Both the position numbers and the translations under genes were made by a program. DNA of 64,000 nucleotides from Halobacteriales archaeon YIM A00013 (GTDB lineage Archaea; Halobacteriota; Halobacteria; Halobacteriales; Haloarculaceae): contig JAKCFM010000003.1 of NCBI GenBank assembly GCA_025041195.1, positions 62,001-126,000 of the forward strand, read 5' to 3'. Each line of letters begins with the position of its first letter. Within the stretch, counting starts at the first letter, position 1. Shown here piece by piece: positions 18,653 through 51,244 of the stretch. A model generated the notes under the pieces. The model searched no databases. It had not been told where the DNA came from and saw only the letters and a program-made list of their open reading frames with translations.

Positions 18653-18791
18653 AGGTTATAGTGGTGTGTGAAAAAATTATGGGAATTAACTGGCCAACAA
18701 GGCGAGGGAGTTGCAAATATTGACCAAGATATCGTGGACGTTCAACAAAGATCCTTCAATTACTAGTGGTCCGTTTACGTATAGCAAGTCA

Positions 18792-20339
18792 ATGAACGCT
18801 ATCGATGAACAAGCGGCCGTTCTAAACGATCCAGTGATACGACATCCATGTGGATCACGGGAAAGTAACCGTGTTGCATTCTATTGGAATCCTTTGCGGA
18901 GGCGAGGACTCTATTTTCACGACATTGACACAGGAGTCACAAAGAAAGTCACCGATCAAGGACTACGTATTCGGTCTTTCCCAGAGGATTTTCTCTGGGG
19001 ACGCAACGGACAGCGGCTCTTCTACATTCGCCCGCGCGGCCGCGGAGATTTTGACGGACCATTCGATCTCCTACAGACGAACATTGATACAGACATGGAC
19101 GCAACTACCATCTTCTCTGATACCAACTTCTTTGTCCTGGAGGATATGCACCCCGAACAGGACGAGCTCTTGTTCAGTTATCGTCGGGGAAGCAGTCAAC
19201 TCTACCGGCTTACACTCTCGTCAGGGGACCTTGAACGTGTGGGAGATCACCTCTTGGTCCGGAAAGCACACTATAGTCCTGATGGACAGTGGATCGCTAT
19301 CAATTCGGCCTATTCTGAAGACAGTCCAGATGAACAACTGCATGTAACTATCGCAACAGAGTCGGGAAAGGTCCACAAGGAGCATCTGACAAGTGACCCT
19401 GTCGAATTTATTAGTTGGCATCCCTCGACCTCACAGATTTTGGTCAAAGCTGCAGATGACCAAAGCCGATTTGGATTCTACGAAGTGACAACCGACACTC
19501 TCCAATGGATAGACACAAATAACCCTGAGTGCGAGCCTGTTGACTTCTTGCCGTCTGGAAAGGGAATACTTGCACTCTGTGATGGAACCCTTCGAATATA
19601 TCCTATTGAAAAGGAAACCATCCCATCGGACGTTTACAGTATGGATACCTCCCCAGTTGTATCAGCTACAGTTACTGATCGTTCGATCGTAGTCCATCAG
19701 CACGATGCGAACGGGAATTCGATCCTCGTTCAATCATCAGGCGACACTAGTGAGTGGACAACCGTTCTCACTTCCAAGCCAGCCCCAGGCGCAACGTATC
19801 GGACACTGATTACGGATGTCGCAAAGCAACTCGCTCGAACACCTCGTATCGAAGACGACAACCGGATGGCCGTCGGAACGGTCCATTCGGCGGAGCGTAA
19901 AGTTCTGACTCCACTCCTTGATGAGGGATTCGAGATCATTGGGACAGGTCTCGGCCGTCTTGTCCTTCGCTTTCCTCAGTCCTCTGCTGTTTCGGACTAC
20001 GTGGTGAAACTGGCCCGTTTTGGTGACACCCCACTATATTCAGGAGCTATCCAAAACCAGTGGGAAGTAACTGTCTGGGAAGAGAATATTGATGAAAATA
20101 ACATTAAACTTTTGCCAATCCAGAATTTCCAGAATTTGAGTTATCGCTGGCTGATAATGCCATATGGAGAACCGATCACTGACTATTCACTGCACGAACA
20201 ATTAATGCTAGTTGAGGAATTGCAAACAGAACTAGCTGATCTTGAATATTTAAACACGTTCGACATCCACCGGAATAATATTGTCCGCTATCAGGACACC
20301 TACTATCTTGCAGATTACGGCCGCCCGCTGATGGATTGA
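18792..20339 (+). CDS. Beta-propeller protein with C-terminal kinase-like domain (515 aa)
   Basis: Residues 1 to about 330 read as TolB or prolyl-oligopeptidase type propeller blades: GLYFHDIDTGVTKKVTD, LFSYRRGSSQLYRLTLSSGDLERV and HYSPDGQWIAINS. No serine-hydrolase domain follows. The last 150 residues instead look like a kinase-fold domain: GTGLGRLVLRFPQSSAVSDYVVKLARFG, RWLIMPYGEPI, and FDIHRNNIV with YYLADYGRP as catalytic-loop and DYG-like pieces. A TTG at 18711 could add 27 residues. It sits next to the lanthipeptide genes and may sense or modify, but a link is only inferred from position. Confidence 0.6.
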   Translation: MNAIDEQAAVLNDPVIRHPCGSRESNRVAFYWNPLRRRGLYFHDIDTGVTKKVTDQGLRIRSFPEDFLWGRNGQRLFYIRPRGRGDFDGPFDLLQTNIDTDMDATTIFSDTNFFVLEDMHPEQDELLFSYRRGSSQLYRLTLSSGDLERVGDHLLVRKAHYSPDGQWIAINSAYSEDSPDEQLHVTIATESGKVHKEHLTSDPVEFISWHPSTSQILVKAADDQSRFGFYEVTTDTLQWIDTNNPECEPVDFLPSGKGILALCDGTLRIYPIEKETIPSDVYSMDTSPVVSATVTDRSIVVHQHDANGNSILVQSSGDTSEWTTVLTSKPAPGATYRTLITDVAKQLARTPRIEDDNRMAVGTVHSAERKVLTPLLDEGFEIIGTGLGRLVLRFPQSSAVSDYVVKLARFGDTPLYSGAIQNQWEVTVWEENIDENNIKLLPIQNFQNLSYRWLIMPYGEPITDYSLHEQLMLVEELQTELADLEYLNTFDIHRNNIVRYQDTYYLADYGRPLMD

Positions 20340-20689: not shown

Positions 20690-20821
20690 TACAACTTATT
20701 CTATTATAACATCAATTAAAAACTTTTCTATATAATAAATATATTTAAATATTGGTTATGTAGATTCTATATAATATAATGGGGCATAAACTTAATCAGA
20801 GATAGGTTGATATATAATATA
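20690..20821. promoter_or_regulatory. Divergent promoter region of lanA and lanM with a 15-nt direct repeat
   Basis: Very AT-rich, 132 bp. TATATAATATAATGG occurs perfectly at 20768-20782 and again at 20811-20825, the second copy including the lanM start codon. The first copy opens a mini-ORF (ATG at 20779, eight codons, then TAG) ahead of lanM. TATA-like sequences occur for both directions. The repeated start region may be a duplication or a control element. Confidence 0.5.
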
Positions 20822-23800
20822 ATGGTAGATAATGGACCACTTGAGAAAGTCCAACAACGACGCATCGCCTGGCAATCACTAACCCTCTTTGAACGGATTG
20901 GAGTATATGACGGATTAGATGGCACCTCATTTGATCTGAAAAAGGGCAACACTGTTGAAATGCAGGAATTTTTCACTGAATGGGATGAGATTATTGCCGG
21001 AGGGGATCGAGAGATCCATGAGAAACGTCTTGCAGACGAAGGAATCTCTAAACGCACTTGTCAAACAAGTCTCCTCACAGAATCATGGCCAGAAAATGTT
21101 GAACTCCCCGAGTGGATCAATGAACTCAATGATCTTGTCATACACAGTTGTGAATCCGAAGCAGATATTAGATATAAAGGAGATGAGCATCCATTTATAG
21201 AAATATTAGCTCCATTTGCTAGCTATGGTTATGAACGCCTATTGTCTAAAGTGGACCTGATTCGGTTGTCAGAGAAGGCACTTAAATCTATAAAAAAGTG
21301 GTTAACAACACGCCTTATAGGACTCTCTGTCGAAGCTCTTTATGTCGAATTTAGCACATTCAGAATGCTTCAGAAGCCAAGCTTACTTGATGAAGATAAC
21401 CTCGATAGCCAAGTTGGAGCTACGGATCTCTATACCGACTTTGTGGGAAAAATGCGCACGGTTGAGGGTCTACAATCCTTTTTAGCTGAGTATCCTGTCT
21501 TAGCACGGCTTATTATAACAACAATACGTCAATGGATAGACGCCATTTCAGAGTTCCATCGGCGGCTCAACCAAGATTGGTCCGACATTCGGACAACATT
21601 CACTTGTTCTAATGAAATAACCTGTATCTCTGATCTCAATGTACTTACTGACGACCGGCATCATAATGGACGGGCAGTCATCAAAGTCGCTTTATCACAA
21701 AGTTCGAGTGTATTATATAAACCGAGAAGCATCGAGACTGAGGAAAAATATGCAGTTCTCGTTAATAATATCGCGAACGCTACTGACTTCGAGTTTAAAA
21801 CCCCACTCACTCTCCCGAAGGAAACATACGGCTGGGTTGAATGGATCCCTTATAAAGAATGTACAACAGTGGATGATGTGAAACAGTATTATAACCGTGC
21901 AGGAGCAATTCTTGGAATATCATACACTTCTTATCTTAATGACTGCCACTTTGAAAACATTGTCACACATGGGGCACATCCAATCATTGTTGATACAGAG
22001 ACAATACTGCATCCATTGACGCATAGTAGAGAGGGGCTATCACTAGTTGAAGATGAAACGGTTGATAGCGTAATGTGGACTGGACTTCTCCCACGAAGAC
22101 TTGACTCGCCAACAGGAAAAGGTGAAGTGAATATTAGTGGGTTTCAGGTCCCGATACTTCCTGAGACGGAAGATCTCAGCAGTCCGATGTGGTGGGAGAA
22201 TATGAATCAGGATACGATGGCCATAGCCAACCGAGAGACATCGTTTATCGAAATTAGCGATTCAAATAATGTGCCGAGATTAAACGGGACTTTCGAAGGG
22301 CCAGGAGCTTATGTAGATGAAATTAAGGCTGGTTTTGAGCAGATGTACACTTTCATTAAGGACAAGCCCAATATCCTTTCACCGCTTGATAACGTAGAAA
22401 CCCGAGTTTTGTTCGGACAAACGTATACTTATACATCCATCCTTGATGCGATCACTGCTCCAGCAGCACTTCGGAGTGGAAAAAATGTGACGTTGCACCT
22501 TGAACATCTTATCGCGGATCGCTCTTTTGATGGCGACTATACCGGTATTAGACAGAAAATATACCAAGCAGAACGAACTGCGATAGTTCGATTAGATGTG
22601 CCACGCTTTGTGGTGACTGATAATAAGATCTACTGGGATGGAGAGTATCTTGGTGAACCAACGGGGATTTCAGGATGGGAACGGGCCTTCAAGAAGGTGC
22701 AGTCGCTCAACGACGACGACCTGACGAAACAACAGGATTATATCCAAACTGCATGTGTGCCAGAGACCTCCCCTGCTGTAACTGGCCACACTATCCAATC
22801 CGCGAATAAGGGACCGTTTCCAGCCAACGTCGGCCCTGACTGGTCAATGGAAGACCTGGTGCAGAGGATCGGTTCACATATTAGGGGACACGCAAGCACC
22901 GATCAATCAGGGAACGTAAGTTGGATCGTTAGGGAATACAGCGACAACCGCTGTTTGGACATAAACAAATCTGACAATGGTATATATACTGGCCGTACAG
23001 GCATTGCAATCTTTCTCGCACTGCTTTCTAAATATACAAACAGTCCCGAGAGTCGAACGATAGCACTCAAAGCTCTCTCCCCACTTCGAAGCAAGCTAAA
23101 CAATGATGAATTATCTAATATCCATCTTGGAAATAGCGATGGGTTAGGATCACATATATATTCACTGAGTAAAGTCGGTCAGATCGTCGATCGGCCACAA
23201 CTCGTCAATGATGCCGAGTTGGCGGCACAGAAGATTACAGAAGAACGTATAAAAAATGAAGAAAAGTTCGATGTTATGAATGGATGTGCAGGAGGACTAC
23301 TTTCTCTTGTAGAATTGTATAACTATCGCAAGGACGACTGGCTCTTACGAAAAGCAATTATGTGTGGTGAGCACCTTCTTCAAAGCCGTTGTAAAACGAA
23401 TACACGCTATCGAGCTTGGCCAAGTAATCTTAGTACTCAACCGTTGATAGGCTTTTCTCACGGAACTTCTGGTATTGCTTATGCCCTCTATCGACTGTTT
23501 AACGCATGCGACGATGACCGATTTAGACGAGCGGGTGAGGAGGCCCTCCGATATGAACGGGCAATGTATTCGAGTAAGCACCAGAACTGGCCAGATGTAC
23601 GAGGTGAGTCTTCTACATATCTCGATGCATGGTGCTATGGCCGCTCTGGAATTGGCCTATCTCGCCTAGGAATTGCAGAGATTGCAGAGACGCAGCTTGT
23701 AAAGGAAGATATCACCAACGCACTGAAACACACAAAAAATACAGGTGGTGGTCTTCCTGATCAGCTATGCTGTGGCAACGCTGGACGAATCGAATTTCTT

Positions 23801-24025
23801 CTTCAGGCAGCCGAATACACGAATGATAGTACGTATGCGGAGACAGCAAATCGTTTATTGAGCAATGTCCTCCAGCGTACAGCGGAGAATCAGTGTTTCG
23901 CATTGCCTGGACATACGCAAACATTATACAATCCCACTTTGTTCATGGGCACCGCTGGAATCGGGTATACGTTGCTCCATTCTCAGTATCAAACAGAAAT
24001 TCCTAGTTTGCTTCTCTGGGAGTAG
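20822..24025 (+). CDS. lanM: Class II lanthipeptide synthetase LanM (1067 aa)
   Basis: The N-terminal two thirds form the LanM dehydratase, which phosphorylates and eliminates core Ser/Thr. The kinase-like active site is seen in NDCHFENIVTHG (around residue 374) and IIVDTETILHP (Asp391). The C-terminal third is a LanC-like cyclase with GFSHGTSGIAYAL (His880), WCYGRSG (Cys938) and LCCGNAGRI (Cys983, Cys984). The zinc site therefore has Cys-Cys-Cys rather than Cys-Cys-His ligands, as in the promiscuous ProcM group. I chose the ATG at 20822 over the TTG at 20807. The partners are the divergent precursor and the downstream phosphotransferase. No LanT exporter or protease gene is adjacent. Confidence 0.96.
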   Translation: MVDNGPLEKVQQRRIAWQSLTLFERIGVYDGLDGTSFDLKKGNTVEMQEFFTEWDEIIAGGDREIHEKRLADEGISKRTCQTSLLTESWPENVELPEWINELNDLVIHSCESEADIRYKGDEHPFIEILAPFASYGYERLLSKVDLIRLSEKALKSIKKWLTTRLIGLSVEALYVEFSTFRMLQKPSLLDEDNLDSQVGATDLYTDFVGKMRTVEGLQSFLAEYPVLARLIITTIRQWIDAISEFHRRLNQDWSDIRTTFTCSNEITCISDLNVLTDDRHHNGRAVIKVALSQSSSVLYKPRSIETEEKYAVLVNNIANATDFEFKTPLTLPKETYGWVEWIPYKECTTVDDVKQYYNRAGAILGISYTSYLNDCHFENIVTHGAHPIIVDTETILHPLTHSREGLSLVEDETVDSVMWTGLLPRRLDSPTGKGEVNISGFQVPILPETEDLSSPMWWENMNQDTMAIANRETSFIEISDSNNVPRLNGTFEGPGAYVDEIKAGFEQMYTFIKDKPNILSPLDNVETRVLFGQTYTYTSILDAITAPAALRSGKNVTLHLEHLIADRSFDGDYTGIRQKIYQAERTAIVRLDVPRFVVTDNKIYWDGEYLGEPTGISGWERAFKKVQSLNDDDLTKQQDYIQTACVPETSPAVTGHTIQSANKGPFPANVGPDWSMEDLVQRIGSHIRGHASTDQSGNVSWIVREYSDNRCLDINKSDNGIYTGRTGIAIFLALLSKYTNSPESRTIALKALSPLRSKLNNDELSNIHLGNSDGLGSHIYSLSKVGQIVDRPQLVNDAELAAQKITEERIKNEEKFDVMNGCAGGLLSLVELYNYRKDDWLLRKAIMCGEHLLQSRCKTNTRYRAWPSNLSTQPLIGFSHGTSGIAYALYRLFNACDDDRFRRAGEEALRYERAMYSSKHQNWPDVRGESSTYLDAWCYGRSGIGLSRLGIAEIAETQLVKEDITNALKHTKNTGGGLPDQLCCGNAGRIEFLLQAAEYTNDSTYAETANRLLSNVLQRTAENQCFALPGHTQTLYNPTLFMGTAGIGYTLLHSQYQTEIPSLLLWE

Positions 24026-24081
24026 TATATCATTAGGATCCATCCCTATTATCTTGGCTGATCTGCAATATAGGTAAGAAG

Positions 24082-25125
24082 ATGACCACAAACAATCGTA
24101 TTTCAACTCTAATCTCCACCCTCTTCCCAGAAACATCCTCCGTCTCATATGAAGTAGCAGATGGGTCGACATTAGGATACACGTACTTCATTGAGAAAGA
24201 TGGGGAACAGACGCAATACGTGTTGAAACTTGCTAAGACAGATGCTGAGAGCAACTTACGGTTCTACCGCACCGACCACACTGGTCAGGCCGCTGTAGAC
24301 GCAATGGTGGTCGAGGCAACCCTTCTCGACTGTATCGCTCAGCAGACAGCAGTGCCAGTCCCCCGGGTACTTCAGGTCAAATCATCCCCAGAAGAAGGGA
24401 TCCCTCCATACCTACTTCTTGAACGGATCCCTGGGACTCCATTGAATATCAAGACAAATATGACATCTGATGCCTGGCAAAGATGTCTTACCGAAATTGG
24501 ACGATATCTCGCAGAGCTCGGCAATGCATTTCAGTTTGATGGGTTCGGATCACTCTGCGACCGTGATGGTACAATTGTTGTGGCGGACGACCAAGGAACT
24601 TGGCCATGCTGGATGGATGCGCAGTACAATAAATACCTTGCGCGGTTAGGATCAACTCCACTCGCAGATCTAGTACCAGAGATCAATTCATTGTATCAAG
24701 ACCGACGTGATCACCTTCCATATCGCCCCGATCCGGTATTGATTCATGACGATTTACACTTAGCGAATATATTGGTTGCCCCAGCGGCCAATGACGGGAC
24801 AATAACAGCGGTATTGGACTGGGAAGAGGCAATAGCCGCTCCACGAGAGTTCCAAGCTGCACGAATGGAATACTCATTGTTCGTAGCTGGAGACACCACC
24901 ACAAAAGCAGGATTACAAGCGAAAGAGTGGTTCCAGAACAGCTACTGGGACTATTCATATGGGCAGCAAAGCCAAGAATATGATATATGCCGAACTCTCT
25001 ATCATCTTCTAATCTGGCTTCGGATGGCCGGTAATTTACAATATAAAGATGGTGTTAATAAGGAGACGAAGATGACAATTGAACAGGCGCTACGTGAAGA
25101 GCTCAATGATATACTTACGACATGA
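24082..25125 (+). CDS. APH-family phosphotransferase (347 aa)
   Basis: Aminoglycoside/choline kinase fold. YVLKLAKTDAES carries the ATP Lys and VVEATLLDCIAQ a helix C Glu. PPYLLLERIPGTPL is the hinge. HDDLHLANIL (His222, Asp224, Asn229) is the catalytic loop, and AVLDWEEA the metal-binding Asp. It starts 57 bp after lanM on the same strand and is probably co-transcribed. It could modify the lanthipeptide, give self-protection, or be a bystander. No known resistance substrate can be deduced. Confidence 0.85.
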   Translation: MTTNNRISTLISTLFPETSSVSYEVADGSTLGYTYFIEKDGEQTQYVLKLAKTDAESNLRFYRTDHTGQAAVDAMVVEATLLDCIAQQTAVPVPRVLQVKSSPEEGIPPYLLLERIPGTPLNIKTNMTSDAWQRCLTEIGRYLAELGNAFQFDGFGSLCDRDGTIVVADDQGTWPCWMDAQYNKYLARLGSTPLADLVPEINSLYQDRRDHLPYRPDPVLIHDDLHLANILVAPAANDGTITAVLDWEEAIAAPREFQAARMEYSLFVAGDTTTKAGLQAKEWFQNSYWDYSYGQQSQEYDICRTLYHLLIWLRMAGNLQYKDGVNKETKMTIEQALREELNDILTT

Positions 25126-25702: not shown

Positions 25703-27670
25703 TCACTTTTGACTCACGACGACACGTGCAGGTCGAAGGACCTGCTGATTCATTAGATAGCCAGGACACTCAACAGAGATAACCGTACGTGCAGGAACGT
25801 CACTCTCGGCAGTTGCAACTACCTGATGTCGATGCGGATCAACTGTATCGCCAAGAGCGGGAGAGAATACCGTCACGTTCATCACTTCGAACACATCATC
25901 GAGTTGTCTCGCTATAGCTTCAATCCCGCTGCGAACGTTGCTGTTGATATCGTGTGTGAGTGCTTGTGCAATTGAGTCACGAACAGGAATAAGCTGTTTG
26001 ATATATTTTTTCCTCGCTTCAACCTGCTCGTAGGAGGATGAGGAATCAACTGCACGGGTGACGGATTCCCCTTGTCGTTCGGGAGGGGGAGTCCGACTGC
26101 GCTCTTTCTCTCCAACCAACTGACTATGCGTCGACACCGATGAAACAGTTCTAGATGCCAGTGGTACGAGCCGTCGAACACGCGCAATCACTTCTGGAGC
26201 AACCTGACGAGTGGATTCGTGGTCGTATACGAATTCTTCCCGAGAAATATGCTCGCTTACCGTTGCACTATCTGCATGGAGATCGACTTTGAATTGCCCG
26301 TACGGGTCAAGAGAAACCGTTATCTCAATTTCTTGTTCTCCTACGTTCGCAGGAGGGAGATCTGTTAGAGTTAGTTCTCCACAGTACTCGTTTTCGGCTG
26401 CTATGCTGTTCTCTCCCTGGAATATCGGTATACGTAACGATGTTTGATTATCTATGCGAGTAACGAATGTCTTTGTTTCTTTGATTGGGATAGTAGTATT
26501 TCTTTCAACAATTGGTTCGAATCGGCCACAATACGTTTCAGTACCTATTGAGCGTGTGATATGAGAGAGAAGGATACTATCGTCGATGTCTCCATGTATT
26601 ATTCCACTTTTCACAGTTGCCCCCAGTGCAACGATTTCTGTCCCATTGGCCGCTGGCGTAACAGGCCGTCCCACCGTCTGTGAAATGGTTCTCTGGACAT
26701 CTGGTAATTGGGAGCCCCCACCGATGAGCACAATGTCGTCAATCGTAGCGGGATCAAAGCCACAGCTTGCAAGGACATTCGCAATCGGTTCGACAAGGCG
26801 AGCAGCAAGATCCTGCGTGATGCGTTCAAATGTCGAACTGGACAATGTCGTCTGCAACCCCAAAGATCCTGTCGATGTTGTCAATAGTGATGGAAGCGTG
26901 ATCTCCGTCTCGGATGTCTCTGATAGTTCTTTCTTCGCCGTCTCGGCCGTGTGGTAGAGTCGATCAAGCGAGTGGGGATTGTTGCGAACGCTATTAGCAG
27001 ACGAAGTACCGTGCTGTTCTGCGAATTCAGCGAGAAGCCATTCAACGATCTCCCAGGTCCAATCGTCACCACCGAGAGCTAGATCACCGTCTGTGGCGAG
27101 TGGCTGGTATACACCCCCACCGATTCGCATGAGTGCGACATCGAATGTAGCAGCACCAAGATCGCAGATAAGCACAAGACGATCTGCATCATTGCTGATT
27201 GACCAGCCAAATCCGAGCCCCGCAAAACACGCATCTCCACCGACGAGAGCACATTCAATGTCGGCGAGTTCGCAGGCTTGACGGATTCCAGACCGATATC
27301 GATTTGATGCCAAAGAAGGTACAGCCATAACGGCTCGATCAACCGACTCCCCTCCTGTGTGTTGCGTGAGTTTGCGAAGCAACACCGCTAGTAACGATTC
27401 GGGACTCTGGTCAGAATCAACGAGAGCAACAGTAATAGGCTCACCAAGATGTGGCTTAAGCATTCGAACAGAGCGATCTGGATGGTTGCGTGCGAACTGC
27501 TTTATATCCCTGCCTGCGGTCAGTTCTCCATCAGCAGAAAGAGCCACAATAGACGGAATCGTTGTCATATCGTTCCGGGTTGTGACTATTTCGGGACCGT
27601 CTTTTCCAATTACGCCAACAGTGCTATTCATCGCCCCAAGGTCAATCCCAAGATCCACTCTATTAGACAT
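25703..27670 (-). CDS. Hsp70-family protein with fused GrpE-like C-terminal domain (655 aa)
   Basis: The N-terminal 380 residues are an Hsp70 ATPase: GIDLGAMNSTVGV (phosphate 1), VLICDLGAATFDVALM (phosphate 2) and DDIVLIGGGSQLPDVQ (adenosine). A short substrate-binding beta domain follows (TFVTRIDNQTSLRIPIFQGE), then a linker rich in Ser, Glu and Arg. Residues 550-655 read like the end of GrpE: LIPVRDSIAQAL, GIEAIARQLDDVFEVMNV, GDTVDPHRHQVVAT, and PGYLMNQQVLRPARVVVS. A chaperone and its own nucleotide exchange factor would thus be one chain. Phosphate motifs deviate from canonical DnaK, so it is a specialised Hsp70. No dnaJ nearby. Confidence 0.85.
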   Translation of the reverse strand: MSNRVDLGIDLGAMNSTVGVIGKDGPEIVTTRNDMTTIPSIVALSADGELTAGRDIKQFARNHPDRSVRMLKPHLGEPITVALVDSDQSPESLLAVLLRKLTQHTGGESVDRAVMAVPSLASNRYRSGIRQACELADIECALVGGDACFAGLGFGWSISNDADRLVLICDLGAATFDVALMRIGGGVYQPLATDGDLALGGDDWTWEIVEWLLAEFAEQHGTSSANSVRNNPHSLDRLYHTAETAKKELSETSETEITLPSLLTTSTGSLGLQTTLSSSTFERITQDLAARLVEPIANVLASCGFDPATIDDIVLIGGGSQLPDVQRTISQTVGRPVTPAANGTEIVALGATVKSGIIHGDIDDSILLSHITRSIGTETYCGRFEPIVERNTTIPIKETKTFVTRIDNQTSLRIPIFQGENSIAAENEYCGELTLTDLPPANVGEQEIEITVSLDPYGQFKVDLHADSATVSEHISREEFVYDHESTRQVAPEVIARVRRLVPLASRTVSSVSTHSQLVGEKERSRTPPPERQGESVTRAVDSSSSYEQVEARKKYIKQLIPVRDSIAQALTHDINSNVRSGIEAIARQLDDVFEVMNVTVFSPALGDTVDPHRHQVVATAESDVPARTVISVECPGYLMNQQVLRPARVVVSQK

Positions 27671-41510: not shown

Positions 41511-42564
41511 AATCAAGCAATGCGTCGACATCGAGATGCTCCGTGAGCAGCGATTGCATCCGTTCGACGGTATCAGCACTCCGTGCTGGACCAGAGTCGA
41601 TGGCGTCTTCGGCACGGTCGACAGCCGTGATCGTATCGGAGGGGACGAGTAGTACCGGCACGCCGGCCTCCTCGGCGCGTCCGAGAACGGCCTGTGGAGG
41701 GCTATGTCCACCGGTGAGGAGCAAGCAGGTGACGCCGGACGCTTGTAATGCTGCGGTCTGAATTTCGGGCCGGTCGCCGCCGGTGATCATTGCGGTCGAG
41801 CGTGTGCGACGGAACTGCCCGAGCGCAGCTTCGGGACCCATCGCACCGACGGTGATCCGTTCGAGGAGTCCATCCAGGGGAGCTTCGTTAGTAAGGATTC
41901 GTGCTCCGAGTTCGTCGGCGAGGTCTGCAACCGTGATGCCCGCAAGCGCACGCTGGTGAGGCACCACGCCAAGGATCGGTATCCCCCGGTCTTCGAGGAA
42001 GGGGATGGCGTCGGTCATCACGTCATCATAGTTATCGTCCGACACACCGTTGAACAGTACGCCATCAACCTCACCGAGCTGCTGGATCGCCGCGAGAAGA
42101 TCGTCCACATCGCCGGGCTCGTCGAAGTGTGTGATGAGTACCACCCGCGCGTCAAATAGATCTGCGACTGCTCGGTCGGTGAGGTCGATAATCTCTCCCG
42201 TCGAGAGTCGGTTGCCCCCCTCCACCACTATCAGATCACGATTGTCGGCGAGCCCACGGTAGCTCTCCGTGACGCGCTCACGCAGTTCTTCGGGATCGGC
42301 TTGGCCCCGGAGTGCGCTCTCGATGAGCGTCTGTGAGTACACCACCGGTTCCAATTCGTGAACCTCGGCGTTGAGGTCAAGTAGTTCGCGTGCGAGTAGC
42401 GGGTCCTCGTCGAGGGTCTTCCCGACGTTGCTTTGCAGGCGCGTGCCTTTCGGTTTCATGTAGCCAGTCTTCACTCCGCGCTCGTCGGCGATGCGCGCGA
42501 GCGCGAGTGCGATGGCCGTCTTACCAGTGCCTTCGTCGGTCGAGGTGAACAGTATCGGGTTCAT
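41503..42564 (-). CDS. BioD-like P-loop protein with DRTGG domain (phosphotransacetylase N-terminal type)
   Basis: MNPILFTSTDEGTGKTAIALALARI holds the P-loop of the dethiobiotin-synthetase-like fold, and DNRDLIVVEGGNRLSTG is a central block. The last 130 residues form a DRTGG domain (MITGGDRPEIQTAALQ, LLLTGGHSPPQAVL, VPVLLVPSDTITAVD). This pairing is found at the N-terminus of some phosphotransacetylases, but no acetyltransferase part follows. It overlaps acd by four bases and is probably a regulator or partner in acetyl-CoA metabolism. Confidence 0.85.
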   Translation of the reverse strand: MNPILFTSTDEGTGKTAIALALARIADERGVKTGYMKPKGTRLQSNVGKTLDEDPLLARELLDLNAEVHELEPVVYSQTLIESALRGQADPEELRERVTESYRGLADNRDLIVVEGGNRLSTGEIIDLTDRAVADLFDARVVLITHFDEPGDVDDLLAAIQQLGEVDGVLFNGVSDDNYDDVMTDAIPFLEDRGIPILGVVPHQRALAGITVADLADELGARILTNEAPLDGLLERITVGAMGPEAALGQFRRTRSTAMITGGDRPEIQTAALQASGVTCLLLTGGHSPPQAVLGRAEEAGVPVLLVPSDTITAVDRAEDAIDSGPARSADTVERMQSLLTEHLDVDALLDSK

Positions 42565-44657
42565 TGGTCGAATTCCTCCGGGTCGATGGTTGCCGCGAGA
42601 TCCACCGCCACGACTCCCTCAGGCGTGGCAACGAGCGGGTTGATGTCGAGTTCGAGGAGAGCAGAGAAATCAGTGACCAACTGCGAGATGCGCTGGAGCG
42701 TTTCAATGAGTGCTGTCTCATCGACCGGATTGCGCCCCCGAGCCCCGCGGAGCAACGGTGCGGCATCGACTTCATCGACCATATCTGTAGCCATCGATTC
42801 GCTTACCGGTGCGACCCTGACGGCGACGTCTTCGAGTATCTCGACAAAGATTCCCCCGAGTCCGAACAACAGCAAGGGACCGAACTGTGGGTCGCGGTTT
42901 ATTCCCACGATGGTTTCGATTCCGGTGTCAAGGTCGATCTGTTCCTGGAGTTGGACACCGAGCACGGTAGCGCTCGGCTGGTAGTTCTTCGCGCGAGCAA
43001 CGAGATCTTCATAGGCGTCAGCCACCTCACTGTCAGAGACACCGACACGGACGCCGCCGATGTCGGATTTGTGTTGAATATCCGCAGCGATCTTCGCAAC
43101 GTCGCCATCGATGTCGGTCGCGAGACGCTCAGCCTCGGTCGGAGTATCCACGACTGCCCCTTGTGGCGTCGGAATACCATAGGCATCGAGCAGATCCATC
43201 GCTTCGACGCCGAGAGATTTCGAGGGACGTTCAGCCGCCTTCTGGATGATATCTCGGGCGCGCTCGCGATCAACGTCGAACGACGCTGGAGCTTCGTACT
43301 CGCGGGTCGAAATTTCTTGGTAGCGCGCAAGTGAAGCGAGACCCGTAACTGCCCGCGACGGGTCGAAATAGGTCGGAATGCCAGCGTCGTCGAGGATGTC
43401 GCGTGCTTCGTGCGTTGACTCCCCGCCCATCAGACAGGCAGCCACCGGAAGGTCATGCTCGGCCTGTGTCGTGCTCGTGATTTCAGCGAGTTCTTCGAAG
43501 GAGAGTACCGCCGTCGGACAAGCGAGCACGAGTGCTGCGCCGACGTTTGCATCGGAGAGCGCCATATCGAGCGCGTCGCTGAAGCGGTCAGCTGCTGCGT
43601 CACCAAGGACATCCACTGGATTGTAGATGTTCGCTTCTTCTGGGAGGACCTCCTGGAACGACCTGAGCGTGTCGTCAGCGAATGAGGCCAACTCCAGCCG
43701 AGAGTCACCGACCGCATCGGTGGCCAGCACCCCCGGTCCCCCCGCGTTTGTGATGACAGCGACCGCCTCGTTCTCCGGGAGAGGCTGACCGTCGAGCATA
43801 CTCGCGGCGTCGAACAGTTCTTCGACTGTCTCCGCGCGGATGACGCCCGCCTGTTCGAGACCTGCCTCGTACGCGCGCTCGCTACCAGCGATCGCCCCCG
43901 TGTGCGAGGAGGCTGCTTGTGCGCCCGCCTCCGTCCTACCAGATTTCACTACCACGATTGGCGTTTCCTGAGTAATCTCCTGTGCTGTCTCGATGAATGC
44001 ACCGCCGTCGGAGATATCTTCTAGATATCCGATGATGACGTCGGTGTCGTCGCTCTCGCCCCAGGCCTCGACGAAATTGCGTTCGTCGAGGACGGCCTTG
44101 TTGCCGAGCGACACCACGTCACGAAAGCCGATATCGCGGTCGTTTGCCCAGTCCAGCACTGCGGTGATGAACGCACCCGACTGGCTCATGAAAGAGATCG
44201 AGCCGTCTTGAGCACCTTCGGGGCCGAATGTCGCGTTCATGTTTACCGAGGTGCTCATAACGCCGACGCTGTTCGGTCCAACGAGATTCAGGCCGTACTC
44301 GCTGGCCGTCTCGCGGAGTTTACGCTCGCGAGTGGCTCCCTCGCTGCCCGCCTCACCGAAGCCAGCAGTGAGCACGACGACGTTCTCGATGTCAGCCGCC
44401 CCCGCATCGTGGACGACTTCGACAGCGACAGCAGCTGGTACGACCACTACTGCGAGGTCCACAGGATCGGGAACCGAGCCGAGATCGGGATAGCACTCGC
44501 GGTCGAACACCGTTTCCTTGCTCGGATTGACGGGCACCACTTCGCCGTCGAACTCGAGTAAATTAGCGGTGACCGCCCGCCCAACTGAGTCTTCACGCTC
44601 GGTTGCACCGACGACGGCCACAGTCGAGGGCGCGAACAGCTCCGAGAGATCACCCAT
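42561..44657 (-). CDS. acd: Acetate-CoA ligase (ADP-forming), fused alpha and beta subunits
   Basis: The 698-aa chain has a CoA-binding domain first (SELFAPSTVAVVGATEREDSVG), then succinyl-CoA-synthetase-like ligase domains with AASSHTGAIAGSE (phosphorylated His near residue 257). The ATP-grasp beta part follows (GVRVGVSDSEVADAYEDL, GPLLLFGLGGIFVE, LLELDINPLVA). It converts acetyl-CoA, ADP and phosphate to acetate and ATP, the normal archaeal route. It forms an operon with the DRTGG gene. The GC-rich codons resemble chromosomal genes. Confidence 0.93.
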   Translation of the reverse strand: MGDLSELFAPSTVAVVGATEREDSVGRAVTANLLEFDGEVVPVNPSKETVFDRECYPDLGSVPDPVDLAVVVVPAAVAVEVVHDAGAADIENVVVLTAGFGEAGSEGATRERKLRETASEYGLNLVGPNSVGVMSTSVNMNATFGPEGAQDGSISFMSQSGAFITAVLDWANDRDIGFRDVVSLGNKAVLDERNFVEAWGESDDTDVIIGYLEDISDGGAFIETAQEITQETPIVVVKSGRTEAGAQAASSHTGAIAGSERAYEAGLEQAGVIRAETVEELFDAASMLDGQPLPENEAVAVITNAGGPGVLATDAVGDSRLELASFADDTLRSFQEVLPEEANIYNPVDVLGDAAADRFSDALDMALSDANVGAALVLACPTAVLSFEELAEITSTTQAEHDLPVAACLMGGESTHEARDILDDAGIPTYFDPSRAVTGLASLARYQEISTREYEAPASFDVDRERARDIIQKAAERPSKSLGVEAMDLLDAYGIPTPQGAVVDTPTEAERLATDIDGDVAKIAADIQHKSDIGGVRVGVSDSEVADAYEDLVARAKNYQPSATVLGVQLQEQIDLDTGIETIVGINRDPQFGPLLLFGLGGIFVEILEDVAVRVAPVSESMATDMVDEVDAAPLLRGARGRNPVDETALIETLQRISQLVTDFSALLELDINPLVATPEGVVAVDLAATIDPEEFDQ

Positions 44658-45225
44658 CAGTCGTGTATTTGTTGGGGGATGTAATAATGCATGGGGCAGT
44701 GAACCAGTGTGATTTACTCGATGGACCGTCCATTGCCGAGACAGTCGCCGACTCCTGGGAAGAGATAGCCTCCATATAGTGCCATCAGACCGTTAGGACC
44801 GGAATATTGCTCGTTCTGACGGTACGCGCGGTCACGCTACCGATGAGGGCGAGGATCACCTTCTAAATGGGCAGAGACGCTCGAATACTCTGCCAAGGAG
44901 GTATCTCGGAATATTGAGAAAGCAAAGCGGAAACTTCGGAACACCTTTGGTGAGAGCTCCTACGACAAAATTTGACGATTTCGAGAAGATAGTACTACTG
45001 AGGTTGTCAACTTATCAACCATCCACAGTTGAAGTTAGAAGCTTGATCCACCTAGTTGGTCGTCTCGTCAAGAAGCCGCCTTACGAGTGCATCAAACGAT
45101 TCCTCCGACTCTTTGCGCTCAGTGAGGCGCTCTATGGTCTCAGATCAAAGCGTAGACTGCGGTGCTGGAGTGTTTGATCACAGACTGTTGGGAAGGCGTC
45201 ACAGAGTCAAATTGAGTAGCCGTAA
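44658..45225. other. Decayed region with antitoxin remnant
   Basis: On the minus strand at 45052-45148 a piece reads ETIERLTERKESEESFDALVRRLLDE. This is typical of short haloarchaeal VapB-like antitoxins, but it has no start and no toxin gene follows. From about 45190 the DNA is duplicated at 57860 beside the second integrase. Nothing else recognised. Confidence 0.45.
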
Positions 45226-45890
45226 TCACATCATTCCAGCTTCCTCGAAGGCTTGGTTAACGACTTCTGGTGTTGGAGCGTTCAGATAGGGTTCGATGGC
45301 CTGGAATGAGTCCCAGCCCCCGACCTGCATGACGACCCGAGGATTCATTTGACGATCAACGAGGAGCCGTTGAGCAAATCGTCGCCGGAGATCGTGCGAG
45401 GACACATGCTGATAGTCAGGATCGCCAGTTTCCTCAGCTGCTCGCTCAGCCGTTCGCTTTACGACCGCGCGTACGCCACGCGTGGAAAGATCGACAAGCG
45501 GTTCGTCAGGAGCAGTCGTCTCGGCAGTAGTATACCGATGGATATCACTCTCGACGTCGGGTGGGAGATAGGCATCGCGAGGCTTCCCACCTGAGCCAGT
45601 GGTATCCTTCCCTCGAGGGACACGCAGCCGATAGTGATTCCCGTCGGTTGTCCGTTTCACGTGTTTCGGACACACCTGGGGAATCTCGAACGCCCGTAAC
45701 CCGACATACCCACCGAGCTGGAGAATGAGATCGTCGCGATGACTGGTAGCAGCTCGCTGGAGCTGTTCCAATTCGTTGTCGGTCATCCACACATTGTATT
45801 CGTCCGATTTCGCGGTCAATTCCAGCCGCATGTGGACTACTATAACAAGTTGCAGTATAGTCTTGGCGATTGTACAGGAAGGGGAGGCGA
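45190..45890 (-). repeat. Direct repeat, left copy (integrase block)
   Basis: Similarity to 57860-58560 covers the integrase gene and reaches past both ends: GAAGGCGTCACAGA downstream, and ACTACTATAACAAGTTGCAG upstream. The two copies have the same orientation and enclose the intact CRISPR-Cas locus. Confidence 0.8.
45226..45831 (-). CDS. Tyrosine recombinase / integrase, copy 1 (201 aa)
   Basis: Catalytic residues are readable: Arg46 (YVGLRAFEI), Lys75 (RVPRGKDT), His146 and Arg149 (SSHDLRRRFAQ), Trp173 (VGGWDSFQA) and Tyr182 (IEPYLN). The protein is only the catalytic domain; the usual N-terminal core-binding domain is missing. I chose Met 45831, which matches copy 2 exactly in length. It is about 94 % identical to the copy at 57897-58502 in the same orientation. 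Such short integrases act on plasmids or islands. Confidence 0.9.
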   Translation of the reverse strand: MRLELTAKSDEYNVWMTDNELEQLQRAATSHRDDLILQLGGYVGLRAFEIPQVCPKHVKRTTDGNHYRLRVPRGKDTTGSGGKPRDAYLPPDVESDIHRYTTAETTAPDEPLVDLSTRGVRAVVKRTAERAAEETGDPDYQHVSSHDLRRRFAQRLLVDRQMNPRVVMQVGGWDSFQAIEPYLNAPTPEVVNQAFEEAGMM

Positions 45891-45898
45891 TTTGATTG

Positions 45899-46336
45899 TC
45901 ATCGGTTATAGACACGCACGTCCTCCGGTCGGTCCGGTCGGCGCATCGTGATCTGTCGCATCAGATTTTTGTAGGCCTCTACCCACGCACCACCGTCGTG
46001 AGTGTAGTATTTTGCGTTACCGTGAGTGCGATCGAGCGTGATCAATTCCCATTCGAGCAAATCGTTGCGGTGTCGCCTGAATGTTTCTGTGTCGATCTCA
46101 GCGCGATCACAGATCTCATTCACGGACAGCGCCCGCGCACTGGACACGAGCACATTTATGATCTTCATGCGCGCACCGGCCTGGAACGCCTTGACGAGCG
46201 CGGCGTTCCCGATCGTTGGGTCTACGGGGTCAAAATCATCAGGCTCGTGCTCACGAATATCCACTCCCATATCGTTGGCAATATCCGAGGGAGTAGGACG
46301 CTCGGGGTCGGAATCTGAGTCATCAGCTGATGCCAT
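45899..46336 (-). CDS. Winged-helix regulator (145 aa)
   Basis: An acidic N-terminus (DDSDSDPERPTPSDIANDMG) precedes NAALVKAFQAGARMKIINVL, then SVNEICDRAEIDTETFRRHRNDLLEWELI and GNAKYYTHDGGAWVEAYKNL, a winged helix. The layout resembles the protein at 32239. It lies 67 bp upstream of the integrase gene on the same strand and might control it. Confidence 0.75.
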   Translation of the reverse strand: MASADDSDSDPERPTPSDIANDMGVDIREHEPDDFDPVDPTIGNAALVKAFQAGARMKIINVLVSSARALSVNEICDRAEIDTETFRRHRNDLLEWELITLDRTHGNAKYYTHDGGAWVEAYKNLMRQITMRRPDRPEDVRVYNR

Positions 46337-46440
46337 ATCTCAATGTACGTGGGAATCATCTTAAACCCACTGCAATGCGGGCTATACCCCACATTAGAAT
46401 GGGTAAGATTATATGAGTATAGATACCACTCTCATATGCA

Positions 46441-46746
46441 ATGGCTAACGAAAATGTAGTCATCGAGGAATTGCCTGCTGTTGTTGACGCCATGGACGAA
46501 CACGGCGTGATCAACAGTGTGAGCATCGAATTCGATGATTTAACGGACGCTGCCAGTATTCAGCCGGCAGACAGAGATGCATTGGTCGAAGTGTTATTTA
46601 TGCTGGCTAGCCGTAATGAATGTCCGCTAGAGGCTGGAATAGTAGACACAGATCTGTATTTCACCCGTATGGGTGATGATCTAGAGCAGGTGCGCAGAGA
46701 CATGAATTGGCACGTCGCCCAACTCCAGAAAGAGTTGGCCGAATAA
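46441..46746 (+). CDS. Hypothetical acidic protein (101 aa)
   Basis: VIEELPAVVDAMDEHGVINSVSIEFDDL, DRDALVEVLFMLASRNECPLEAGIVD and DDLEQVRRDMNWHVAQLQKELAE give a soluble alpha/beta protein. It is divergent from the winged-helix gene with a TATA-like stretch between them. No family recognised. Confidence 0.6.
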   Translation: MANENVVIEELPAVVDAMDEHGVINSVSIEFDDLTDAASIQPADRDALVEVLFMLASRNECPLEAGIVDTDLYFTRMGDDLEQVRRDMNWHVAQLQKELAE

Positions 46747-47116
46747 CGGTACTACTCCAGTTCGTCGACGGCCATTGCACACTTTTTGCGAGCATCTACA
46801 CTGCAATTCGATCGGTGACCGTGGTCAGGATCGAACCAGAGTGTTTGAGGTCACTGGATTGATCCTCAGCTCGTTGAGCCAGAAGAGCGGCCACAGGTGC
46901 AATCGTCAATACTTGCCTGGCAGTGGTTCCCGCAGCTCCTGGTCGTCGCGAGCAGCGGACTCTCCATGGTCTCTCGCGAAGTCACCCTGATCGACTAATC
47001 CGACCACCTGATTTCTCAGCACACTACGACTCGAGTTGCTAGTTCCTACCATGGTGTAAAACTATAGTTTCTCGCCAGACTGGCGAAAATGGGGTGGCTT
47101 TATCTACGAGTCGTGG
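46747..47116. other. Gap with small remnants
   Basis: A minus-strand frame of 48 codons starts at 47052 (MVGTSNSSRSVLRNQVVGLVD) but has no support from family features. CTCGCCAGACTGGCGA near 47070 is a short palindrome and might end transcription. No other gene seen. Confidence 0.3.
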
Positions 47117-47369
47117 TTACGTCTGCAATCGGTAGAGGGTAGCAATTCCAACAAGGATAGCAACTCCCGCCACGATGGCCCCCCAGCTCGGTCCTGATGG
47201 ATCGTTCACTTCGAGGATGAGAGCGATGACACCCAGTCCAATAGCCACGAACGCACTGACCCATGCTCGTTGCCCATCGAATTCCCCATCTGTGTTACAC
47301 TGAGCCGTCCTGTTTTTATTATTCTGTCTGTAACTCGTGGTCGATTTATATGATCGCGGATGGGATGAC
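47117..47369 (-). pseudogene. Small membrane protein gene cut by CRISPR array 3
   Basis: The frame reads FDGQRAWVSAFVAIGLGVIALILEV and WGAIVAGVAILVGIATLYR, two membrane helices. Its only Met lies inside the first repeat of the array, so the native start appears lost. It could start at another codon, but the upstream residues (SSHPRSYKSTTSYRQNN) look non-native. Confidence 0.45.
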
Positions 47370-47922
47370 GCTTCAATCCCACTAGGGTTCGTCTGTAACG
47401 ACATTACGACAAAGGTCGCGGCATCGTTATATGTGCTTCAATCCCACTAGGGTTCGTCTGTAACACTGACCCGAACTCTCGGGCCGGATCGTTCGACGCG
47501 CTTCAACCCCACTAGGGTTCGTCTGTAACGGGCCGCTCCGTCATGATCTGGATCTAGCTCCAGGCTTCAATCCCACTAGGGTTCGTCTGTAACCCGGATG
47601 TGTCCCATCCCTTCCATCCAATCCATGTGCTTCAATCCCACTAGGGTTCGTCTGTAACTGTCTTTCACGATAATTCACTCACGCAGTACGTGAGGCTTCA
47701 ATCCCACTAGGGTTCGTCTGTAACGCCGCTCTGATGGAGTTAGATACACAGTCGGAGTAGGCTTCAATCCCACTAGGGTTCGTCTGTAACCAACTGGATA
47801 ACAGTGAGGAGAAGTTGAAGAGTGCAGCTTCAATCCCACTAGGGTTCGTCTGTAACACGCGTTTCATCAACTGATTCGTTGCAGTAGGCCAGGCTTCAAT
47901 CCCACTAGGGTTCGTCTGTAAC
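47370..47922 (-). CRISPR. CRISPR array 3 (9 repeats, 8 spacers), transcribed leftward
   Basis: 30-nt repeats read GCTTCAATCC...CGTCTGTAAC on the plus strand, so transcription is leftward from the leader at 47923. The first repeat is at 47370 and the last at 47893-47922. One repeat has CAACCCC instead of CAATCCC. Spacers are 34-36 nt and all different. It belongs to the intact cas locus. Confidence 0.97.
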
Positions 47923-48181
47923 CATAGCCGAAACGGGGGCTATAGCGTTCAGAGTAGCCGAATCCCCATCAAGATTTCCATCGACCCTCGGTACCCGCAG
48001 TCCCCCGGGGGGTTGATGGATTTGGCTACAAGAACTGCTGATCGTCCATCGTAGTACCTCACATTTGCTCGCATGTTGTGGAGACTTCCTTGGATGAACT
48101 TTCGCGCGATTGACTACCGTCGATTGGGGGTGTCGTAGGCACGACCCTGCTCGACAAGCGTCTGGTGCTATCTATTACCAA
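47923..48181 (-). promoter_or_regulatory. Leader of array 3
   Basis: ATAGCC/GGCTAT hairpin at the repeat border (47924-47943), then TCCATCGACCC...GGGTTGATGGA (47977-48020). The 57 bp next to the repeat equal the array 4 leader with one difference. AAGAACTGCTGATCGTCCATC follows distally. It abuts the 3' end of cas3. Confidence 0.75.
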
Positions 48182-50887
48182 CTACTCCGTCAGCACGGGC
48201 GGCATGACCCCACGCCCATGAACAAGGGAATACTTCTCAACCGAGACGAGCACAGAGAGTGGCTCTTCCGTGTCAATCGCAAGCTCATCAAGGGCTGGCT
48301 GTGTCGTTCTGGTCTTCGGGATCGACACGAGGGTCTGTTTGAGTGCAGAAAACAGTGCGTTTGCCGCCTCAAACTCGCGGGCGTTCTTCAACGCGTGGAA
48401 GCGCTCAAGATACTCGGTTTCATGCCCGACAGGAATCAGGATCTCCTCCGTCTCGTAGTCCTGCTCGATAAGCGATGCTTGTCGTAGCTTCTCGCCACAG
48501 GCCCGATCGACGTACCGTGAGAGTTCGTCATCGCGTTCACCAGAGCGATCCTGAGCGTGGACAGCATCATAATAGTACTTGACAGCACGACTAATCATCG
48601 TATGTTCAGGCAGCGACGTCTCAGCAGGAGAGCCGTCTGGACACACTGCCCGTAGGGCCGTTCTCGTCGGGCCCAGTAAGTCCCGCTCCAATCCGTATAC
48701 CGCCCGCGATGGTGGACAGTCACTATCCTCTGCCCCCAATCGCCAGAGAACCACCGTGCCATCAGCACCATCGTATGATCGATTACACCGCCCAGCTGCC
48801 TGCACAAGCGACGGAAGAGGCGCAACATCACGATACAGTCGATCCACACTCATGTCAACACCCGCTTCGACAAGTTGCGTCGATGTTATCATGATTGAAA
48901 CATCATCGAACGGTGTTGTCTGCTCCGCTGCAAGTAGGCGTCGCACACAGGCGATAAGAATCGTGCGATCAATCGGGCGCACCCGTGTTGTTAGTGTTGC
49001 CAGCAGGTAGTCAGCGCCAGTGTCTGCTGCAGCGAGATAGTCAAGGTACACTGCCGCCGCCTGGTCGATGACATCTGCCGATGACTCAGCAGCCACCGTC
49101 TCTTCTTCGATATCGGCTATCTCTCTGGCACGTCCAACATTCGTGGTGGCCTCGTAGATCCGAGCAAGCCAGTTTGTCTCCTCATAGAATGCAAGCAGGT
49201 GCGCACCGAGATGTGTTGTTGGCACCTCGCGTGTCTCAAAGCGCGCGTCAATCCGCTCGCTCAATCCGCAGGCACTCCGAACAGTATTACAGATCGCAAG
49301 CACTGTCTCACGCTCTTCGGTTGCAGTGATGTCTTCGATGAGTCGATCGGTCGCACTCGCTGGTGAGCGAGGAGGAACTGTCCCATCCGTTAGGTACTCT
49401 CCGAGTGAGTCGTCGAGGAGATAGTCGACACGGGGGTTGTCTTCGAGGAACGAGAGATACGGTGACTGGTCCGGAATAAGCTGACTGGGGGAGAGATCGT
49501 CGTTAATTTGATCGATAATCCGTGGTTGTGTCGCAGTCATGAATATGACTGTCGCGTTGTACTCCTCAACGACGATCGAGATGAGGCGGCTGATAAGATG
49601 CCACCACTCCATCGAGAGCGCTTGTGGCTCATCAAGGACGATGATGCTGTCTTGCAAAGCGGGTAATTTGATCGATTGAGTGTTTGCTGGGCCAGCAACA
49701 GACTCAAACAACTGAACGAATGTGGTCAGGACGAGCGAGGCTAGCCATGTTTCGCCGTAGAGTACCTCATCACCCGTATTCGGATGGTCTTTGATTTCGA
49801 TTGCATCAGTACGTGTCTGAAGTTGCTTAAGATGGTGGTGGATAGTGTACTGGGGAGATCCGCTCTGCACATTGAAGACGGTCTGAATGTCATCGTCAAT
49901 CTGATCGATCACAGATGTGTACGGAAGGGCGTAGATGACGCGTCCATCTTTTTCCTCGGCGAGTGTGAGGGCAGCCTCAAGCCCCGTGAATGTCTTTCCG
50001 AAGCCAGTCGGGAGAGTAAGTGTACAGACGTTTTCACCACTTCGATACTGCTCCAGGAGGCGCTTCCGAGCCGTCGTCCGCGCCTGATCGCGAAGATCGT
50101 TAAGCTGGCGTTTGATCCCACGACGGTCCGGAAACGAGTCGATCTCTTCCTGAATGGCACTAGGATCGAATGCGACAGGTGATCCGCTTGGAGCGGTCAT
50201 CCCCGCTGCATTCAGTTTGTCCGCACACGTGAGGAGTGACCAGAGGCTGAGTACCGTCGTATAGAAGTCATCGCTCGGACTGGTGTTGCCCGTCATCAAG
50301 AGGTTGGAATACTGTTCAGGATCGTCAGATGGGATATCCGACCAGGTGAGGTGCCCATCGGTAGCCTCCGCTAGGAGTTCAGTGCCAAGAGATGCAGTAT
50401 GTGTGTCGATATCCGTCAGCTGTGCGCCAACACGATCGAATCGCTGGGAGCGATACCCATTGACTCCCTTCGGATCAACCTCTCCTAAGTGGTCGTTCTC
50501 GTAATTCGGAATCGTCAGGTGGTGTTTTGCGACCGCATAGAAGGCGGCGGTTCGGAGGGTACCGGATATCTCCGGGTAATCAGGATGGGAATCCAGACAG
50601 TGGAGTGCATGTACCGTCACAAATGCACTACTGAGGCTATGATAGCGATACCGGTCCTGTGGGTCTCTCGAATCATCCTCGTGGATGTATTGTTGGAAGT
50701 ACTGGGTTAGCTTTCCAATATCGTGGAGACGAGCGATTGTGCGTGCAGTCACGCGGAAGGCCGCGTCATCGCCAAGTGCGGTGGTTGAAAGGAGCGTATC
50801 AATATTCTCTCTAACGCCAGCGAGGTGCTCGGAGAGTGGCTGGCCAGGGCGGGCAATAATCTCTGCGTTCGTGGTATACGTCGTCAT
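48182..50887 (-). CDS. cas3: Cas3 nuclease-helicase (type I-B)
   Basis: The N-terminal HD nuclease shows His21, RLHDIGK (His55, Asp56) and YHSLSSAFV. The helicase part has CTLTLPTGFGKTFTGLEAA (Walker A), IIVLDEPQALSMEWW (DExH-like) and VIFMTATQPR, then MITSTQLVEAGVDMSVDRL and AGRCNRS (motif VI). Length 901 aa, intact. After Cascade binds a target with the right PAM, Cas3 nicks and degrades the DNA. Here it is divergent from the cas6-8b-7-5 operon; in most haloarchaeal loci it follows cas5. Its start is 180 bp from the putative creT promoter. Confidence 0.96.
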   Translation of the reverse strand: MTTYTTNAEIIARPGQPLSEHLAGVRENIDTLLSTTALGDDAAFRVTARTIARLHDIGKLTQYFQQYIHEDDSRDPQDRYRYHSLSSAFVTVHALHCLDSHPDYPEISGTLRTAAFYAVAKHHLTIPNYENDHLGEVDPKGVNGYRSQRFDRVGAQLTDIDTHTASLGTELLAEATDGHLTWSDIPSDDPEQYSNLLMTGNTSPSDDFYTTVLSLWSLLTCADKLNAAGMTAPSGSPVAFDPSAIQEEIDSFPDRRGIKRQLNDLRDQARTTARKRLLEQYRSGENVCTLTLPTGFGKTFTGLEAALTLAEEKDGRVIYALPYTSVIDQIDDDIQTVFNVQSGSPQYTIHHHLKQLQTRTDAIEIKDHPNTGDEVLYGETWLASLVLTTFVQLFESVAGPANTQSIKLPALQDSIIVLDEPQALSMEWWHLISRLISIVVEEYNATVIFMTATQPRIIDQINDDLSPSQLIPDQSPYLSFLEDNPRVDYLLDDSLGEYLTDGTVPPRSPASATDRLIEDITATEERETVLAICNTVRSACGLSERIDARFETREVPTTHLGAHLLAFYEETNWLARIYEATTNVGRAREIADIEEETVAAESSADVIDQAAAVYLDYLAAADTGADYLLATLTTRVRPIDRTILIACVRRLLAAEQTTPFDDVSIMITSTQLVEAGVDMSVDRLYRDVAPLPSLVQAAGRCNRSYDGADGTVVLWRLGAEDSDCPPSRAVYGLERDLLGPTRTALRAVCPDGSPAETSLPEHTMISRAVKYYYDAVHAQDRSGERDDELSRYVDRACGEKLRQASLIEQDYETEEILIPVGHETEYLERFHALKNAREFEAANALFSALKQTLVSIPKTRTTQPALDELAIDTEEPLSVLVSVEKYSLVHGRGVMPPVLTE

Positions 50888-51010
50888 TATGAGGAATAGC
50901 CTCGATGCTGGTATGTCGTTACGGCTGTTCGGGAATCATGAATGTGTCGCCTATCTCATCCGTTCACTGAGTTGTGTGAAGATGCCACTACCACTGAGAC
51001 ACATACTTTC

Positions 51011-51120
51011 TATTTGTAGGAAGCCATAGCCACAAAGCTTATGATCCACTCGCGACCTGTTTCTGATGCGTATATCAAATGGATATAGAATACTTATGAA
51101 CGTATCCACCACGATGCAAG
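51011..51120 (+). ncRNA. creT: Candidate creT: small RNA toxin gene with CreA target in its promoter
   Basis: TTC at 51008-51010 is a haloarchaeal I-B PAM. The next 16 bases, from 51011, match the CreA pseudo-spacer except at position 12. A TATA-like CTTATGAT (51038-51045) lies about 25 bp ahead of an ATG at 51066, suggesting a leaderless transcript. The frame from there has many Arg codons, among them AGA and ATA early on and a tandem AGA-AGA near 51144. CreT RNAs of other haloarchaea act by trapping rare tRNAs. The exact toxin end is not defined. Confidence 0.6.
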
Positions 51121-51244
51121 CACGACACCGACGTGGTCTAAGAAGAGCGATCACAAAGCGGCTACGTCTCAGCGACTCACAGCGAAAACGGAGCTTTTTG
51201 GTAGGCTCCCCCAATAGTAGGAACTACCCTACAACAGTCCTACA

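Follow-up and report, generated by a model that had tools for sequence, protein, structure and literature searches.

Hsp70 chaperones and the nucleotide exchange factor GrpE are normally separate proteins, with the GrpE dimer acting in trans and bearing a long helix. Does the gene at 25703..27670 (minus strand) of the window, by which we mean the whole 64,000-nucleotide stretch of a Halocatena genome analyzed here, truly place both in one chain, and is its product a chaperone that carries its own exchange factor? A sequence-only reading had proposed an Hsp70 with altered phosphate loops fused to a GrpE-like exchange factor, so that ADP release would become intramolecular, encoded among accessory genes away from the housekeeping dnaK operon. 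We found no published description of such a fusion by full-text search of the open-licence literature, and an earlier report elsewhere is possible.

A GrpE head replaces the Hsp70 lid

The gene (P0001) is an uninterrupted ORF with an ATG start that encodes 655 residues, and all features given below lie, like the gene, on the minus strand. Pfam HSP70 matched residues 7-512 (E = 5.8e-92, 309 bits against a cut-off of 20.6). Together with the alignment to DnaK, this match placed the nucleotide-binding domain (NBD) at residues ~1-365 (26576..27670), and the HSP70 profile and the strands of the AF2 model placed SBDβ at residues ~366-490 (26201..26575). Both phosphate loops are altered, as had been proposed: loop 1, GIDLGAMNS (residues 8-16, 27623..27649), has alanine and methionine in place of T11 and T12 of DnaK, and loop 2, DLGAATFD (residues 170-177, 27140..27163), has alanine in place of both G197 and G198 with D194 and T199 kept. 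The interdomain linker that follows the NBD is degenerate, with DDSILLS replacing KDVLLLD of DnaK in the alignment. The HSP70 match stops at residue 512, which is position 510 of the 599 in the profile; no Pfam HSP70 match to the α-helical lid (SBDα) was found past this residue, and the C-terminus is a GrpE head.

This head, composed of two helices and a β-wing (residues ~549-655, 25706..26026; Pfam GrpE, AF2 and PDB comparison), is reached through a variable, probably disordered linker of ~60 residues (residues ~491-548, 26027..26200; pLDDT <50, dN/dS 0.57-0.64). Pfam GrpE matched residues 537-654 of the whole chain (E = 1.4e-21) and the tail scanned alone (4.2e-23), with scores of 77-82 bits against a cut-off of 25.8; NCBIfam GrpE models matched down to 4.7e-24, and a sequence search matched the solved GrpE chains 4ani (2.8e-8) and 1dkg (7.5e-8). 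The tail motifs on which the sequence-only reading had relied (VRDSIAQAL, MNV, DPHRHQVV and PGYLMNQQVLRPARVVV) are all present, as are the two loop motifs. Because the match covers only positions 44-165 of the 165 in the GrpE profile, leaving positions 1-43 unmatched, we conclude that the GrpE part of the fusion has no long N-terminal helix.

The predicted structure of the tail gave the same assignment. AlphaFold modeled a confident two-helix and β-wing head, with pLDDT >90 across most of it and residues 1-38 of the modeled tail disordered. The 14 best PDB chains retrieved with this model by Foldseek all came from GrpE or DnaK-GrpE entries, and VIA-align superposed it on E. coli GrpE (1dkg_B) with Z 15.2 and rmsd 2.1 over 117 aligned residues, compared with Z 7.5 and less for unrelated helical rows. 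The full-length AF2 model resembles DnaK over the NBD and SBDβ and is poor past residue ~470; its C-terminal part is weak and does not position the GrpE head against the NBD with confidence. These results show that the protein is a divergent haloarchaeal Hsp70 (NBD and SBDβ) in which a flexible linker and a GrpE head replace the lid, so that the proposal of both partners in one chain held in profile and structure comparison alike.

Relatives, selection and genomic setting

A plasmid tblastn search found the same fusion on plasmids of two further Halocatena species, H. salina (75%) and H. marina (two assemblies, 74%), and this recurrence of the architecture shows that the fusion was not created by faulty assembly. 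An intact fusion was present in only two of the seven Halocatena genomes examined. In the H. salina copy ~24 residues are deleted from SBDβ, and H. marina also has short copies that comprise only the end of SBDβ, the linker and the GrpE head (a 246-aa ORF in QDMS1, disrupted in DFN5). All of the H. salina and H. marina fusions are annotated "nucleotide exchange factor GrpE", a label that conceals such fusions in present annotation.

A survey of ~390 haloarchaeal genomes revealed, in further species, a rare form that extends into a Ser/Thr kinase and that the sequence-only reading had not foreseen. In Halomicrobium mukohataei, LC1Hm and katesii, a chain of ~1160 aa runs from an extra N-terminal SBDβ-like piece through Hsp70 and the GrpE head to the kinase, and its plasmid records annotate it only as "GrpE". 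Two further haloarchaeal lineages, G051 (1042 aa) and G370, which belongs to another family (1217 aa), also have Hsp70–GrpE–kinase chains, and HSP70, GrpE and Pkinase all score above the Pfam cut-offs in every kinase-bearing chain. The window protein stops after GrpE with no C-terminal Ser/Thr kinase, and a Pfam scan of its genome yielded no Hanks-type kinase that reached the cut-off. The protein is shown to be a plasmid-borne member of a small haloarchaeal Hsp70–GrpE set, some chains of which extend into a Ser/Thr kinase.

No further fused frames were recognised in the phylum survey. Other long GrpE frames, from nine haloarchaeal genomes, proved to be stand-alone GrpEs whose reading frames stay open over a long upstream stretch, and the sole Hsp70-motif flag among such frames was the product of a loose pattern. 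Candidates for a bacterial-type plasmid fusion, namely the Legionella and Natrinema matches, carry grpE and dnaK as separate genes, and a Propionibacteriaceae match has no GrpE-like frame. A viral origin was likewise rejected, as viral contigs held no close relative and the matches in phage collections were DnaK-like. PADLOC returned no match that would make the fusion part of a known defence system, and we took its kinase-model matches (PD-T4-6 and similar) to the kinase-bearing relatives as generic kinase similarity.

Several features near the relatives were recorded in passing. In the three Halomicrobium species, the Hsp70–GrpE–kinase gene is followed, at most ~150 bp downstream, by the start of a large CRISPR array (at L080 15210, L081 15504 and L104 6391), of which the sequence examined contains 42-59 exact repeats. 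On NC_013201.1, a plasmid on which the kinase query found 12 related places, genes for two protein kinases, an AAA ATPase, a vWA protein and HEAT-repeat proteins cluster at 41675-54768, with the Hsp70–GrpE–kinase gene ~10 kb away. In genome G044, the genes for a second, short Hsp70 (610-aa frame, L250 18-1850, plus strand) and for a GrpE-like protein of 552 aa (L250 1860-3518, minus strand) lie tail to tail; the two are perhaps a dedicated unfused pair.

The ancestry of the fusions was approached with trees of their parts. In the tree of NBD and SBDβ, the Halocatena, Halomicrobium and G370 proteins form a group (support 97/94) that lies next to haloarchaeal DnaK and apart from the lidless Hsp70s, and all eight fusions lie on one side of a weakly supported branch (32/60); the window NBD is 38% identical to that of the genome's own DnaK. 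In the tree of GrpE heads, the fused heads stand apart from stand-alone GrpEs yet are not united. By these alignments a single origin is plausible, on trees whose long branches could pull fast-evolving rows together.

We estimated selection on each domain with NG86 dN/dS, comparing the window gene with its H. salina and H. marina counterparts. Ratios against H. salina were 0.25 for the NBD, 0.15 for SBDβ, 0.64 for the linker and 0.32 for the GrpE head; those against H. marina were 0.28, 0.26, 0.57 and 0.19, respectively. For the whole fusion the ratio was ~0.27 compared with 0.065 for the housekeeping DnaK of the window genome and H. salina, which indicates that the fusion is under purifying selection while its protein evolves faster than DnaK. 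Such faster evolution, along with the SBDβ deletion in H. salina, the remnant copies in H. marina and the scarcity of intact copies among Halocatena genomes, could mean that an accessory Hsp70–GrpE(–kinase) gene has lost its kinase and is now drifting as a decaying relic. We consider this distinctly improbable, as full-length ORFs persist in three species, dN/dS is clearly below 1 in the NBD, SBDβ and GrpE head, and all three have the same changed loops, AMNS and AATFD. Between the same two genomes, dS was 0.45 for the fusion and 1.03 for DnaK; this low dS suggests from sequence divergence that the fusion may have been transferred between species after their split, with differing codon pressure (GC3 0.43 compared with 0.73) as an alternative account.

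Conservation within the fusion is highest in the GrpE head (83-85% identity), and the 246-aa H. marina ORF implies that a head may function with no NBD attached. Both observations would fit a regulator acting in trans, either through the GrpE head on the chromosomal DnaK or through an NBD that competes for J-proteins or GrpE, with host proteostasis retuned as a result. However, the NBD is likewise under purifying selection (dN/dS ~0.25), which argues against a function that resides in the head by itself; in H. marina DFN5 the short copy is disrupted, and the long helix is missing from the head. We judge this account improbable.

The fusion lies on C3, a plasmid-sized replicon or contig (255,819 bp) of the Halocatena genome, whereas the housekeeping GrpE and DnaK are on C1, the main contig, in keeping with the accessory, mobile-looking site that had been proposed. 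Its window neighbours include a LanM-like lanthionine synthetase, an APH-family kinase and nucleases, with a CRISPR-cas locus 20 kb off, and none of the window's neighbours is conserved beside the H. salina or H. marina copies. No dnaJ was found among the annotated or scanned neighbours of the Halocatena fusions; the genome as a whole has seven J-domain matches.

The window also holds several features of separate interest. A class II lanthionine synthetase-like protein (DUF4135 and LANC_like) followed by an APH-family kinase, found here in an archaeon, is encoded at 20807-25125, and a propeller-like protein at 18711-20339 has a C-terminus that resembles a small kinase fold (FDIHRNNIVRY...LADYG) with no Pfam kinase match. 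Type I-B-like cas genes (cas3, cas6, TM1802-type, cas7 and cas5) occupy 48182-56339, flanked by two very short arrays of ~2.5 units each (repeats at 47369-47530 and 56741-56902). Elsewhere in the genome, C1 carries three short lidless Hsp70s (681749, 712555 and 1301611), each adjoining a J-domain gene with a membrane-protein-like product; the three Hsp70s form a single clade with similar proteins from other Halocatena genomes.

Residues of the nucleotide cycle

We next asked which residues of the Hsp70 nucleotide cycle the fusion retains, with positions numbered on the E. coli DnaK sequence. At the scored positions this row matches the DnaK of the window genome and five further haloarchaeal DnaKs, so the contrast between the Halocatena fusions and DnaK is independent of it. 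P0001 keeps the nucleotide-binding residues D8, K70, D194 and T199 and the proline switch residues P143 and R151. All three Halocatena fusions carry T11→A, T12→M, G197→A, G198→A and E171→D, the position of D393 is occupied by S, S and H, and the linker VLLL of DnaK is replaced by SILLS, IANLS and IIPLH. The kinase-bearing relatives retain T11 and the linker aspartate, and judged by these residues their ATP cycle may be normal.

Published mutants indicate what such changes could mean. T11 and K70 of DnaK sense the gamma-phosphate, and their exchange for residues without polar groups incapacitates allostery; D393A is unable to attain the ATP state, E171D is tolerated and still responsive, and T11G is among the mutants described while T11A is not (PMC12406271). 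In Mycobacterium tuberculosis (Mtb), the long N-terminal helix of GrpE makes essential contacts with DnaK and is needed for binding (PMC10803776); tethering could compensate for its absence in the fusion.

Could the fusion nevertheless be a self-sufficient chaperone, in which the tethered head accelerates the loss of ADP from the NBD of its own chain, and clients are folded with host DnaJ and no need of host GrpE? Its complete and conserved GrpE head, the nucleotide-binding and proline-switch residues, the J-domain proteins of the genome and the fit of a mobile stress function to a plasmid-sized replicon all speak for this account. Nevertheless, T11A, D393S/H and the degenerate linker predict that ATP coupling is lost, the fusion has no lid, its GrpE lacks the helix that Mtb DnaK binding needs, the H. 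salina copy has shed part of SBDβ, and no dnaJ accompanies the gene; we therefore hold it to be unlikely. For the intramolecular ADP release proposed by the sequence-only reading, the retained nucleotide-binding residues are favourable, while the changed ATP-client coupling residues and the missing GrpE helix are not, and cis exchange in a working chaperone is possible but less likely.

Our preferred reading, held tentatively, is that the fusion is an allosterically altered, largely ATP-uncoupled Hsp70–GrpE module for client binding, sensing or regulation and not a self-sufficient foldase. The NBD would still bind nucleotide, and the tethered GrpE head would dock on the NBD of its own or a partner chain and favour the open state. 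With both the interdomain linker and the gamma-phosphate sensor altered, ATP would no longer open and close the client site in the normal way, and the protein would act as a binding, sensing or regulatory module instead of in folding.

A possible sensory cassette and known systems

In Halomicrobium and the two other lineages, the Hsp70–GrpE module may serve as the input domain of the attached kinase, whereas in Halocatena it stands alone. On a more speculative reading, which we regard as doubtful, Hsp70 and its exchange factor were fused as a sensory cassette in which the nucleotide and client state of the pair gates a Hanks-type kinase, yielding a direct protein-folding sensor kinase of which Halocatena would be the kinase-free branch, an ATP-uncoupled regulator. 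The kinase-bearing relatives suggest that in archaea a chaperone cycle can be coupled directly to phosphorylation signalling, and that the Hsp70–GrpE pair was taken over as a sensor or regulatory module in preference to a usual folding role. A lidless single chain without the long helix would, moreover, reveal which contacts are dispensable once the partners are tethered, and would offer a clean test of nucleotide exchange in cis.

Compared with DnaK (Hsp70, PF00012), the fusion is alike in the fold of its NBD and SBDβ, in its nucleotide-binding residues and in its proline switch, and it differs by the absent lid, the changed ATP-coupling residues and the C-terminal GrpE head. It shares with GrpE (PF01025) the short helices and the β-wing with its DP..H and GY...R.A.V.VS motifs, but it has neither the long N-terminal helix nor the tail and sits behind an Hsp70. 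The haloarchaeal Hsp70–GrpE–kinase chains are likewise lidless, with Hsp70 followed by the GrpE head; unlike the fusion, they continue into a C-terminal Ser/Thr kinase and sometimes include a second SBDβ, and their phosphate loop 1 and linker are closer to DnaK than those of the Halocatena fusion.

The closest published associations are the neighbourhoods of GAP1-N2 GTPases and the Hsp70-like proteins of CoCoNuT systems. In conflict systems centred on GAP1-N2 GTPases, ~14% of neighbourhoods contain HSP70 and GrpE genes (Kaur et al. 2020, PMC7159879), and other such neighbourhoods contain protein kinases and vWA proteins (PMC7159879). There, however, HSP70 and GrpE are separate genes around a GTPase, whereas here they form one chain, and no GTPase (GAP1-N2 included) was found among the Pfam matches of the scanned window ORFs. 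CoCoNuT CnuD likewise reuses an Hsp70-like NBD and SBD in a larger system, with very low ATPase activity predicted (PMC11090510); unlike the fusion, it is fused to or encoded with McrB/McrC parts and has no GrpE.
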